Positions 20,310 through 24,494 of a DNA stretch of 64,000 nt are shown here, piece after piece. The translations under genes and the position numbers were made by a program. The notes below the pieces were generated by a model that was not told where the DNA came from, ran no database searches, and saw only the letters and a list, made by a program, of their open reading frames with translations. Numbering within the stretch: position 1 is the stretch's first letter; every line of letters starts with the position of its first letter. The stretch is from Myxococcota bacterium (GTDB lineage Bacteria; Myxococcota_A; UBA9160; SMWR01): the NCBI GenBank assembly GCA_039030075.1, contig JBCCEW010000006.1:186001-250000 (forward strand). Direction: 5' to 3'.

Positions 20310-20992
20310 CTCGGCTCGCTCAGGGCGGCCTTGGCTTCCTGGGCACTCTGGATCCCGTTCACCAGGAAATAGCCGAGGCTCGCCGAGACGGCGGCGCAGG
20401 CATCGGCTACCAGCGAGACGCCATAGGCGATCTGGATGCTGCGCAGGTCGCTGGCGAACTGCAGCGTCAGCCCCGAGAGCGCTTCGAGCAGGAGCCAGGC
20501 CAGGAGTGCACACCACCAGGCGAGGACGAGTCGGAAAGACGGGACCGACTGCCAGTCCAGCGGCGCGCGTGCGTCGGGGTCGCTCGCCCGCCAGATCTCG
20601 TTCACGACCTGGTAGGGCCGCCAACAGTTGAGCCCGGGAATCAGGAAGGCGAGCACGGTCCACCCGCGACGAAAGCGCATTCCCGCAGCGCCCAGGGACC
20701 GCACGTTCGCGCGCATCCGGTAGAGCCAGGGCAGGAACGCGGCCGCCAGGAACACGGCCATCAGCGACTGGGCCCAACCGAGGATCGTCCCCGCCTTCGC
20801 GTGCGCGAGTCGCTCGGCAGGTTCCAGACTCTCTCCGCTCTGGATCGAACTCACGACGCGGATCTCGCCCAGGTCGTAGCCGGCTGCGATCCAGGAGACG
20901 ACCGCTCCCAGCACGAAGACGGCGGCGACGACCTGCGAGAGGGTGCGGGTCGGCACGTAGGGCGGGGTCAGGCTCAGGCGGTCGGAACTCAT
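20270..20992 (-). CDS. DUF4328-type membrane protein
   Basis: A 240-residue multi-pass membrane protein with helices at about residues 20-42, 75-98, 122-138 and in the C-terminal third. The pattern FLPWLYRMRANVRSLG and GMRFRRGWTVLAFLIPGLNCWRPYQ (separated here) is typical of DUF4328 proteins: a membrane helix followed by a P-x-x-x-x-x-P-Y-Q segment. Function unknown. The ATG overlaps the stop of the SpoU-type methyltransferase gene (ATGA), so the two are translationally coupled. The 3' end overlaps the MFS gene by 40 bases in convergent orientation. Confidence 0.75.
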   Translation of the reverse strand: MSSDRLSLTPPYVPTRTLSQVVAAVFVLGAVVSWIAAGYDLGEIRVVSSIQSGESLEPAERLAHAKAGTILGWAQSLMAVFLAAAFLPWLYRMRANVRSLGAAGMRFRRGWTVLAFLIPGLNCWRPYQVVNEIWRASDPDARAPLDWQSVPSFRLVLAWWCALLAWLLLEALSGLTLQFASDLRSIQIAYGVSLVADACAAVSASLGYFLVNGIQSAQEAKAALSEPSYAPDFRGANVPA

Positions 20993-21708
20993 ACGGATGC
21001 GTTCCCCAGTTGACGCAAGCGTTCGGCGGCGAGCATCGCGACGGCCGCTTGCAGGTTGTAGGAGGTCACGAAACCGGACATCGGGATGCGGACGACGTCG
21101 TCGCAGCGACGCAGGAGCGTGGGGGGAACGCCTTCGGACTCGCCGCCCACGACGCAGAGCACGGATTCGGCGAGCGCACACTCCCAGGGAGCGAGCGCGC
21201 CGCTGTCCTCGACGCCCACGATGCGTTTTCCCGCGCGGCGCGCAGCGCCCAGGACCTCTCCTGCCGACTCCCAGGCGAAGGGAAGGAAGCGGTCCGCGCG
21301 CATCGAGGCGCGTCGCGTCTCGCGACGCTGCTCGTGGTCGAAACCGTTGTCGACGTAGACGCCGTCTGCGCCGCTCACTTCCGCGGTGCGGACGGCGGTG
21401 CCGATGTTCCCGGCGTAGGCGGTGCCCACCAGCAGCCAGACCGCTCCGCCGCGCGCCATCACCGCGTCGAGAGGCGCGTCGACATCGGGGCCGACCAGAG
21501 CCGCGATCTCCGCGTCGCCCAGGAGCCGCCGTTGCCGGTTGCCCGCGACGCGGTCCACCGGAACGCCGCTGGCTTCCGCGCGCGAGACGAGCTCGGCGAG
21601 GGCCGGCTCCGCGTCTTCGGCCACGACCAGGCGGCGCACCAAGCGCTGTTCGTCGAGCGCGCGTCCGACCTCGGCCGCGCCGCTCACCCGCGTGCGCGCG
21701 TCACTCAT
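20989..21708 (-). CDS. SpoU/TrmH-family RNA 2'-O-methyltransferase
   Basis: SPOUT-class, SAM-dependent RNA ribose methyltransferase, 239 residues. Motif 1 is NIGTAVRTAEVSGADGVYV with the catalytic arginine, motif 2 is VVGGESEGVP, and motif 3 is IPMSGFVTSYNLQAAVA. In motif 3 the usual S-L-N is T-S-Y-N, a modest departure. The N-terminal segment resembles the small substrate-binding domain of the RlmB/TrmH group. Target rRNA or tRNA nucleotide unknown. ATG 21708 gives the family N-terminus. A TAGACT -10-like hexamer on this strand (21906-21901) implies a leader of about 190 bases that contains a duplicated 13-mer. Confidence 0.85.
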   Translation of the reverse strand: MSDARTRVSGAAEVGRALDEQRLVRRLVVAEDAEPALAELVSRAEASGVPVDRVAGNRQRRLLGDAEIAALVGPDVDAPLDAVMARGGAVWLLVGTAYAGNIGTAVRTAEVSGADGVYVDNGFDHEQRRETRRASMRADRFLPFAWESAGEVLGAARRAGKRIVGVEDSGALAPWECALAESVLCVVGGESEGVPPTLLRRCDDVVRIPMSGFVTSYNLQAAVAMLAAERLRQLGNASV

Positions 21709-21834
21709 CGCGGGGGCTCTGCGCGGACACGCCCGTGCCGCACTTCCTGCCGCGGAGACCCACACCAACTGGATGTCACCCCAGCCCCTGCACCCACCCT
21801 CGCGCTCGTATCGCGCGAAGCGTCGGGACGCCGT

Positions 21835-21914: not shown

Positions 21915-22673
21915 TCACGAACCGCGAAAGACGAAGTAGTCGTTGCCCGCGCCGCGCTTGCCATCGGCCTGATAGCGCTCGACGAGCAAGACGCCTCGCT
22001 CGGCCAGCCCGGCCGAGAGCCGTTCGAGCTCGGCCTCCTCGAACGCGTGGAAGTAGCGCACGGCGTCCGGGGCCTGGTCCCAGGGGAGCAGGTGGTCGCC
22101 CGCCTCGAGGTCGTCGACGTCCAGGGGCCCGAAACGCGCGGTGTCCCAGGCCGACCACCGGCGGATCCGGGACACGAGTCGCGGGTCGGCCAGCGCGCGC
22201 CAGGTGGTGAAGACCAACAGGCCACCCGGCAGGAGCCGCTCGGCGCAAGCCTCGAGGAGACGTTGGCGTTCGCGTTCCCCCGGCATGCCGTGAAGGACAC
22301 CGAAGGCGACCACGCTGGCATAGGGGCCGCGGGGGAGTGCGTCGGGCCCGGCGAAGTCGATCTGATCCCAGCGGCAGTCGCCGAGCTCGCGCGCCCGTGC
22401 CCGAGCGAGGAGCCCGGCGCTGGCATCCACACCGTGGAGGGTCCAGGCGGCGAGCGCCGGTGCTGTGCGCAGGAAGGCGGCGAAGCGTCCGTGGCCGCAG
22501 CCCAGATCCAGGAGCCGGGGTGCGTCGGTGTCGCGCCCCAGGTCTTCGAGTCGGGGCAAGAGGGCGTCCCAACCGCGCCAGGGCCGTTCCCGCTTGCCGG
22601 CGAAGGCCTCGGCGTGGTCCCGGTAGAAGCGCCGGTTCACCTCCAGAAGGGTCGCGCGGGTGGCCGGCTTCAC
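21915..22673 (-). CDS. Trm9/ALKBH8-like SAM methyltransferase, candidate tRNA U34 enzyme
   Basis: Class I methyltransferase of 252 residues. The start region has the Trm9-like pattern VNRRFYRDHAEAF, then RERPW; motif I is LDLGCGHGRF (55-64), followed by GVDAS and the acidic loop. The C-terminal block RYFHAFEEAELERL, with a late N-D-Y-F, matches the RYYHxFxxGEL...NWYV signature of Trm9/ALKBH8 methyltransferases, which methyl-esterify cm5U34 to mcm5U34 in tRNA. The neighbouring, divergent gene encodes Elp3, which makes the cm5 precursor; this strongly supports the assignment. The likely start is GTG 22673, only 27 bases from the Elp3 start; GTG 22640 is an alternative. Confidence 0.68.
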   Translation of the reverse strand: MKPATRATLLEVNRRFYRDHAEAFAGKRERPWRGWDALLPRLEDLGRDTDAPRLLDLGCGHGRFAAFLRTAPALAAWTLHGVDASAGLLARARARELGDCRWDQIDFAGPDALPRGPYASVVAFGVLHGMPGERERQRLLEACAERLLPGGLLVFTTWRALADPRLVSRIRRWSAWDTARFGPLDVDDLEAGDHLLPWDQAPDAVRYFHAFEEAELERLSAGLAERGVLLVERYQADGKRGAGNDYFVFRGS

Positions 22674-22700
22674 GCGGTCTCGCGATACCCTGACGCCGCC

Positions 22701-24494
22701 GTGCAGCGCAGCCCCCGTGCCGCCTTCGATCCCGCCCCCCATCGTGACACACTGTGTCGGTTGATCGATGCGCTGGCGACGACCGAGCCGCTCGACGCCA
22801 AGACCCTCGATCGGCTCGTGAAGCGCCATCCAAAGGACGGGCGGGGGCTCTTCTCGAAGACCGAGATCATCGCCGGGTTCCGCGCGTTCGGAGCCCGCGC
22901 CGACATCAGCGAAGCCGACTTCGTCTCGCGGCTGCGCATGCGGCCCGTCCGCACGCTCTCGGGTGTCACGCCGGTCACCGTCCTGACGAAACCGTTCCCG
23001 TGTCCGGGGACCTGCATCTTCTGTCCGAACGACGTCCGCATGCCCAAGAGCTACCTCGCCGACGAACCGGGGGCCCAGCGCGCAGAGGACAACCGCTTCG
23101 ATCCCTATCTCCAGACCTGGAACCGCCTCGACGCGTACCGAAGCATGGGACACCCCACCGACAAGGTCGAGTTGATCGTGCTCGGCGGTACCTGGTCCCA
23201 CTATCCCGAGCGCTATCAGCGCTGGTTCGTCACGCGTTGCTTCGAGGCGATGAACGACTTCGGCGCGGGGCGCGATCGGCGCGATGCCGCGGGCAGCGTG
23301 GATGCCGATTTTCGCCGCGTGCCCGCCATCGAGGGGGCGTCGGTCGAGGTCGGAGCGTACAACCGAGCGATCGGCGCGCATCTCGAGTCACAGCACGGGG
23401 CTCTGCTCGATGCGACGGAGTCGGCAAGCGGGGAATCGCTGACCGCGGCGCAGCGCGAGAACGAGCACGCGGGCACGCGCTGCGTCGGTCTGGTGCTCGA
23501 GACGCGTCCCGATCGCATCGATCCGGACGAGGTGCAGCGGCTGCGTGCACTCGGGGCCACCAAGGTCCAGCTCGGCGTCCAGAGCCTCGACGACGACATC
23601 CTGCTCGCGAACCAGCGAGGGCACGACACCGCTGCGACCCGCCGTGCCTTCGCTTGTCTGCGACGCGCCGGCTTCAAGATCCACGCGCACTGGATGCCGA
23701 ACCTGCTCGGGGCCGACGCCGCATCGGACGCGCGCGATTTCCGCCGACTCTTCGACGATCCCGCGTTCCGTCCCGACGAGCTGAAGCTCTACCCGTGCAT
23801 GCTCATCGAGAGCGCCGAGCTTGCGCGTCATCACGCGCGCGGCGAGTGGTGGGCCTACGACGACGAGACACTGGTCGATCTGCTGGGAGAGTGCATCGCT
23901 GCGACGCCGCGCTGGTGTCGTCTCACCCGGGTGATTCGGGACTTCTCCTCTCATGACGTGGTTGCCGGCACCCACACAGCGAACCTTCGCGAGGTCGCGG
24001 AGCGCCGGCTTCACGCCGCCGGGACGGCGATTCACGAGATCCGACGTCGCGAGCTGCGCGGCGAGGCGCCCGCCGCAGGCGGGCTGCGGCTGCACGAGAC
24101 GCGCTTCGATACCGAGGTGGGGACCGACTGGTTCCTGGAATGGGTCGACGCGGAGGATCGGCTGGCGGGTTTTCTGCGGCTCACACTTCCCACCCAGGTG
24201 GACCTCGCAGAGCTCGAGGGCGCCGCACTGATTCGCGAGGTGCACGTCTACGGCGCGTCGCTGCCGCTGGGCCGACGGGACGCGCGCGCTCCACAGCACT
24301 CCGGGCTGGGGGCGCGGCTCATCGATCGAGCGGCGAGGATCGCGAGCGGCGCCGGCTTCGAGCGGCTCGCGGTGATCTCGGCCATCGGGACCCGCGCCTA
24401 CTACCGCCGCCTGGGATTTCGGGACGGAGCGCTCTACCAGTTTCGGGGCGACATCGGCCGTTCCGGCAATGGCGAGAGCGTCAGGCCCGTCTGA
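22701..24494 (+). CDS. Elp3-like radical-SAM/GNAT tRNA U34 carboxymethyltransferase
   Basis: A 597-residue Elp3 homologue. The N-terminal helical region KRHPKDGRGLFSKTEIIAGF matches bacterial Elp3. The radical-SAM domain has CxxxCxxC (Cys101, 105, 108 in PCPGTCIFCPND), followed by RMPKSYLADEPGAQRA and LIVLGGTWSHYPERYQ. The C-terminal GNAT acetyltransferase fold includes GLGARLIDRAARIA and TRAYYRRLGF. Elp3 uses acetyl-CoA and SAM radical chemistry to place a carboxymethyl group on tRNA wobble U34. It is standard in eukaryotes and archaea but uncommon in bacteria. GTG 22701 is the best start; no good ribosome-binding site is visible and the divergent gap is tiny. Confidence 0.92.
   Translation: MQRSPRAAFDPAPHRDTLCRLIDALATTEPLDAKTLDRLVKRHPKDGRGLFSKTEIIAGFRAFGARADISEADFVSRLRMRPVRTLSGVTPVTVLTKPFPCPGTCIFCPNDVRMPKSYLADEPGAQRAEDNRFDPYLQTWNRLDAYRSMGHPTDKVELIVLGGTWSHYPERYQRWFVTRCFEAMNDFGAGRDRRDAAGSVDADFRRVPAIEGASVEVGAYNRAIGAHLESQHGALLDATESASGESLTAAQRENEHAGTRCVGLVLETRPDRIDPDEVQRLRALGATKVQLGVQSLDDDILLANQRGHDTAATRRAFACLRRAGFKIHAHWMPNLLGADAASDARDFRRLFDDPAFRPDELKLYPCMLIESAELARHHARGEWWAYDDETLVDLLGECIAATPRWCRLTRVIRDFSSHDVVAGTHTANLREVAERRLHAAGTAIHEIRRRELRGEAPAAGGLRLHETRFDTEVGTDWFLEWVDAEDRLAGFLRLTLPTQVDLAELEGAALIREVHVYGASLPLGRRDARAPQHSGLGARLIDRAARIASGAGFERLAVISAIGTRAYYRRLGFRDGALYQFRGDIGRSGNGESVRPV

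Follow-up and report, generated by a model that had tools for sequence, protein, structure and literature searches.

A divergently transcribed elp3 and Trm9-like methyltransferase gene pair as a candidate wobble-uridine modification module in Myxococcota and other bacteria

The locus and its Elp3 protein

The window analysed here, a 64,000-nucleotide stretch that corresponds to positions 186001-250000 of contig C6 of its own genome (G000; 5.76 Mb in 55 contigs), contains a gene for a predicted Elp3 and, transcribed away from it, a gene for a class I SAM methyltransferase (Table 1). The coordinates, the strands and the 27-bp spacing that the initial annotation had assigned to this pair are all correct, and the start of the methyltransferase agrees with that of its relatives, whose proteins open with MxxxT at the equivalent position. 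The relatives that were retrieved by name are metagenome-assembled genomes with the labels Deltaproteobacteria, Myxococcales or Myxococcota, and the host therefore most likely belongs to an uncultivated class of Myxococcota. Directly downstream of the methyltransferase gene, and on the same strand, lies a gene for a SpoU/TrmH-type 2'-O-methyltransferase (20989-21768, minus strand). The product of this gene falls below every NCBIfam equivalog cut-off, and a SpoU/TrmH-type homolog accompanies the pair at 10 of the 21 class loci examined, that of the window included.

Table 1. Features of the divergent gene pair, in positions of the window; residue counts refer to 114 aligned methyltransferases or 75 aligned Elp3 proteins.
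Feature	Position	Strand	Details
Elp3, radical SAM/GNAT tRNA U34 carboxymethyl enzyme (predicted)	22701..24494	+	597 aa, GTG start 22701
Radical-SAM 4Fe-4S motif C101-x3-C105-x2-C108	23001..23024	+	invariant, 75/75
Insert of ~55 residues in the radical-SAM half	23271..23429	+	not in Dehalococcoides/Methanocaldococcus Elp3
GNAT/KAT acetyl-CoA-binding domain	24126..24419	+	PF00583 match, residues 476-573
Intergenic space between divergent start codons	22674..22700	.	27 bp
Trm9-like class I SAM methyltransferase	21915..22673	-	252 aa, GTG start 22673
N-terminal motif R28-x-x-P-W (yeast Trm9 R29..W33)	22578..22592	-	R 114/114, W 102/114
His128 (yeast Trm9 H115)	22290..22292	-	H 112/114
R206-Y-F-H209 (yeast R241-Y-Y-H)	22047..22058	-	R 114/114, Y 109/114, H 111/114
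Asn244 of the terminal N-x-Y (yeast Trm9 N271)	21942..21944	-	N 109/114

The Elp3 protein scores 448.8 bits against TIGR01211, for which the cut-off is 350, its top matches in the PDB are Elp3 structures (5l7j and 6iad) together with eukaryotic Elp3 chains, and its AF2 model has a mean pLDDT of 84. Both the radical-SAM cysteines and the GNAT domain that had been recognized at the outset are present in a protein that lies above the family cut-off. The counterparts of K150, K266, Q461 (Glu in the Dehalococcoides mccartyi protein, E386) and Y517 of Methanocaldococcus infernus Elp3 (MinElp3), residues that contribute to the binding or hydrolysis of acetyl-CoA (PMC6367351), are invariant in the 75 aligned Elp3s. 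The position of H463 is kept in 74 of the 75, and an H463 mutant of MinElp3 is still active (PMC6367351). Judged from the sequence, the radical-SAM cysteines and the residues of the acetyl-CoA site are intact.

Bacterial Elp3 was known before, from Dehalococcoides. The branch of Elp3 to which the window's protein belongs resembles the D. mccartyi (Dmc) and M. infernus (Min) enzymes in having radical-SAM and KAT domains and identical catalytic residues, but it is only about 40% identical to Dmc Elp3, whereas Dmc and Min Elp3 are 51% identical to one another. It also differs from them in its insert (the region has a median length of 64 residues in this branch versus 7 in Dehalococcoides and 5 in Methanocaldococcus) and in the zinc cysteines, which are replaced by I, E and R in the window's protein and are mostly lost across the branch; its gene has a divergent Trm9-like partner. 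Eukaryotic Elp3 is also without the zinc cysteines (PMC6367351), and their loss therefore does not exclude membership of the Elp3 family.

A methyltransferase resembling Trm9

Searches with the methyltransferase as a single sequence (phmmer against the PDB, Pfam and NCBIfam) returned generic methyltransferase matches only and would on their own have spoken against a Trm9-like identity, which emerged once a profile was used. The methyltransferase is 32-50% identical to its orthologs in the class, 40 of which make up this profile (A1). Against 177,635 PDB sequences the best match to A1 was Trm9 from Yarrowia lipolytica (5cm2; E=1e-13, 54 bits), the next scoring 45 bits. When the comparison was turned around, yeast Trm9 scored 55.7 bits and Yarrowia Trm9, the sequence of which was taken from the PDB match, 52.7 bits against A1, versus 20.8-51.2 bits for the 18 generic methyltransferases that are most Trm9-like in the genomes of relatives. 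None of these 18 matches A1 before position 32, whereas the match to Trm9 begins at position 14 (yeast) or 26 (Yarrowia, a truncated sequence) and, for Yarrowia, runs to position 221. The Trm9 match includes N- and C-terminal parts that the generic enzymes leave unmatched, and the family does not behave like a generic small-molecule methyltransferase. A Trm9 query against 61 relatives placed Elp3-adjacent methyltransferases at 14 of the 17 top matches; in the window's own genome the best single Trm9 match is a generic methyltransferase and not the one adjacent to Elp3.

The protein was initially singled out for an RYxHxFxxAEL motif and a terminal N-x-Y; these are present as RYFHAFEEAEL and NDY, and both RYxH and N-x-Y show almost no variation across the 114 aligned methyltransferases. 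Like the eukaryotic Trm9/ALKBH8 proteins, which act with Trm112, the bacterial proteins are class I methyltransferases with TRxxPW, HH, PW, RYxH and a terminal N-x-aromatic motif in the same order, and the equivalents of R29, H115, R241 and N271 of yeast Trm9 are conserved in them. The position of yeast Y243 is occupied by Cys in 90 of the 114 proteins and by Phe in that of the window; Ala and Val also occur. In the yeast sequence used here, all five residue identities agree with those published (PMC5372719). Mutation of R29, H115, R241, Y243 or N271 cripples yeast Trm9, with R29A impairing it (PMC5372719).

Unlike Trm9, to which they are 19-29% identical in its yeast form, the bacterial methyltransferases are without the long yeast-type loop before RYxH, have mostly Cys in place of Y243, and are encoded by a gene paired with that for a single-subunit Elp3. 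They are also not co-distributed with Trm112. Co-distribution was ruled out by the patchy occurrence of Trm112-family (PF03966) proteins, which are missing from many pair-bearing genomes, as far as can be told with a short profile that could miss distant members. Trm112 is therefore unlikely to be an obligate partner of the methyltransferase.

The AF2 model of the methyltransferase has a mean pLDDT of 95.4. When it was used as a Foldseek query, 5cm2 ranked 36 by E-value, with several small-molecule methyltransferases above it, and had a target-normalised TM-score of 0.74, the highest among the 50 matches listed. In phylogenetic trees the bacterial family forms one clade with 97-98% support, and Trm9 joins this clade apart from the generic methyltransferases with modest support (78/54, and 80% of bootstrap trees) that is weaker in a larger tree of 49 rows. 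The kinship with Trm9/ALKBH8 rather than with generic methyltransferases that the initial annotation had envisaged is favoured, at 78-80%, and less clearly so in the larger tree; the protein is here named Trm9-like rather than Trm9.

Recurrence of the pair and distribution of MnmE and MnmG

We examined 118 genomes of the phylum, 91 of them from the window's class (its own genome included) and 27 from other classes. The methyltransferase is present in 64, Elp3 in 63 and both in 62. Within the class, 62 of the 65 genomes that have either gene have both; two have the methyltransferase only and one has Elp3 only, and all three show fragmentary matches in fragmented assemblies. The two genes lie on one contig in 61 class genomes and are divergent in every one of these, with gaps of 22-241 bp between their aligned parts in 57 of the 61. 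A separate scan of a collection that overlaps the window's class in part yielded 80 methyltransferase loci, the others belonging to Chloroflexota, Acidobacteriota and Patescibacteria, or to single MAGs that carry the labels Verrucomicrobia, Phycisphaera and Desulfuromonas. At 57 of these loci an adjacent, divergent Elp3 gene was found, 4 loci end near the contig edge, and 19 are without an adjacent Elp3 so arranged. In a Thermoflexus MAG (L108) the two genes are linked. The divergent pair therefore recurs beyond chance, in 61 class genomes and at 57 of 80 scan loci, and its co-occurrence across genomes, named at the outset as a check, extends to several phyla.

Adjacency does not account for the association. 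Fifty methyltransferase-positive genomes from the scan (mainly Chloroflexota, Acidobacteriota and Patescibacteria) were searched whole and all 50 contain Elp3, which in two is split over fragments. Among 199 evenly sampled Acidobacteriota, the methyltransferase and Elp3 occur in the identical 10 genomes, in two of which (G319 and G349) the genes are unlinked or on separate contigs; since co-occurrence persists where the genes are unlinked, the association is independent of adjacency. In five loci from Thermoanaerobaculia/Acidobacteriota/Holophagales (L096, L102, L115, L122 and L142) a gene for a short-chain dehydrogenase, oriented as the methyltransferase gene is, lies between the two. A third component of the module was considered for the gap in Thermoanaerobaculia and set aside, the dehydrogenase being probably unrelated.

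Not one of the 91 class genomes, among them all 62 with the pair, has MnmG above its cut-off, versus 19 of the 27 that represent the phylum's other classes; for MnmE, which was searched for in the window's phylum, the corresponding counts are 0 and 16. In the window's own genome neither full-length MnmG nor full-length MnmE exceeds the cut-off. Weak partial MnmG matches in the class are, to read from their position and length, probably TrmFO. Among the Acidobacteriota, MnmG exceeds its cut-off in none of the 10 pair-bearing genomes versus 164 of the other 189 (164/199 overall), a contrast that would have a chance probability of 1.4e-9 for independent genomes, an assumption that does not hold here. 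That the absence is an artefact of the search was ruled out, as MnmG is detected by the identical search in 19 of the 27 other-class genomes and in 164 of 199 Acidobacteriota. Of the 50 other methyltransferase-positive genomes, one has MnmG. The one genome among those tested to have MnmG, Elp3 and the methyltransferase is a Desulfuromonas sp. SDB MAG (L129/G154), in which the pair is not adjacent and Elp3 lies on another contig; it may represent either a genuine exception or a mixed bin.

The converse does not hold. About 26-28 class genomes (for example G022, G023, G025, G026 and G035) are without full-length MnmE and MnmG and likewise without Elp3 and the methyltransferase, and 20 Acidobacteriota are without both the pair and MnmG (no MnmG match at 1e-60). 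Loss of MnmEG thus does not require the pair, and the notion that the one always accompanies the other was ruled out. Several genomes from the phylum's other classes are likewise without either U34 system. The rule is one-way: genomes with the pair are, in nearly all cases, without MnmG, and genomes without MnmG need not have the pair. Of the initial proposal that the pair is parallel or alternative to MnmE/MnmG, "alternative" is favoured by the absence of MnmG from pair-bearing genomes (62/62 in the class, 10/10 Acidobacteriota and 49/50 others), and "parallel" fits less well.

A candidate route to mcm5U34

In bacteria, MnmE/MnmG-dependent modification of U34 counts as the standard, and mcm5U is seen as a signature of eukaryotes. 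It is established that Elp3 makes cm5U34 and that Trm9 esterifies cm5U34 (PMC6367351, PMC5372719). We propose, with a probability of about 0.72, that the pair is a bacterial wobble-uridine module in which Elp3 makes cm5U34 and the methyltransferase esterifies this to mcm5U34 or a closely related nucleoside, a route that would take the place of MnmE/MnmG. Elp3 would use acetyl-CoA and radical-SAM chemistry to carboxymethylate U34 at C5, and the Trm9-like protein would then methylate the carboxylate of cm5U in a SAM-dependent reaction to give mcm5U; alternative products would be mcm5s2U, should a thiolase act as well, or a closely related derivative. Such a module would operate without Elongator subunits and its methyltransferase without an obligate Trm112 partner. 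The substrate, product, order of steps and Trm112 independence of the methyltransferase are what we infer. A role of the module as a substitute for the MnmE/MnmG pathway to cmnm5U is suggested by the absence of MnmG from nearly all genomes that carry it. MnmE-MnmG(-MnmC) has the nucleotide and the decoding role in common with the proposed module, acting on the C5 side chain of U34, but reaches cmnm5U/mnm5U by unrelated chemistry.

It is possible, though unlikely, that Elp3 makes cm5U34 and the methyltransferase methylates a different group or a subsequent intermediate, or belongs to a branch that ends in an amide or another ester. The Cys found in 90 of 114 proteins at the position of Y243 suggests that the substrate pocket differs from that of Trm9, and archaea make other nucleosides from cm5U, such as ncm5U in Thermoplasma (PMC5372719). 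Nevertheless, the other four residues that orient the substrate in Trm9 are conserved at 96-100%, and the strict tie of the methyltransferase to Elp3 suggests that cm5U is the substrate.

We regard as improbable the idea that the methyltransferase is no tRNA enzyme at all and is instead a small-molecule or protein class I methyltransferase whose linkage to elp3 reflects chance or a shared promoter. Although Pfam and NCBIfam indicate only a generic methyltransferase, and the top Foldseek matches by E-value are small-molecule enzymes, the co-occurrence holds where the genes are unlinked (in G319 and G349; 19 of 80 loci are without an adjacent Elp3, and all 50 genomes tested have Elp3) and the Trm9-specific N- and C-terminal motifs are conserved. 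It is more improbable still that the Elp3 itself is not a U34 carboxymethylase, being a protein acetyltransferase or a radical-SAM enzyme for another RNA, with the methyltransferase following it. Such a role would accord with the insert of about 55 residues, the loss of most zinc cysteines and an identity to Dmc Elp3 (40%) below the 51% shared by Dmc and Min. Against it, every catalytic residue tested is invariant or nearly so, bacterial, archaeal and eukaryotic Elp3s all respond specifically to tRNA (PMC6367351), and the anticorrelation with MnmG points to U34.

A 2017 review of Trm112-dependent methyltransferases described bacterial homologs of these enzymes as undetectable (PMC5372719). A search of the literature, in a body of papers with few subscription journals and no preprints, turned up no bacterial Elp3-Trm9 unit, and the initial remark that no described unit was known stands to that extent, with an archaeal precedent: an elp3-trm9 cluster has been noted in Sulfolobus, and predictions exist for Haloferax (PMC2584109, PMC5372719). 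The archaeal candidates, compared here by description only, resemble the bacterial pair in the proposed cm5U-to-mcm5U-type route and, in Sulfolobus, in the clustering of the genes, and differ in their archaeal context and limited distribution.

With less assurance than we attach to the module itself, we favour the broader view that a complete Elp3-Trm9-like mcm5U34 pathway takes the place of MnmE/MnmG in Myxococcota, Chloroflexota, Acidobacteriota, Patescibacteria and a small number of further lineages, without Elongator subunits or obligate Trm112. If this is correct, two U34 chemistries would be alternatives within bacteria, and U34 modification in many bacteria that are without MnmEG would be explained. 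As a model, the pair would also reduce to two proteins a pathway that requires at least 15 in yeast, where it leads to mcm5(s2)U.
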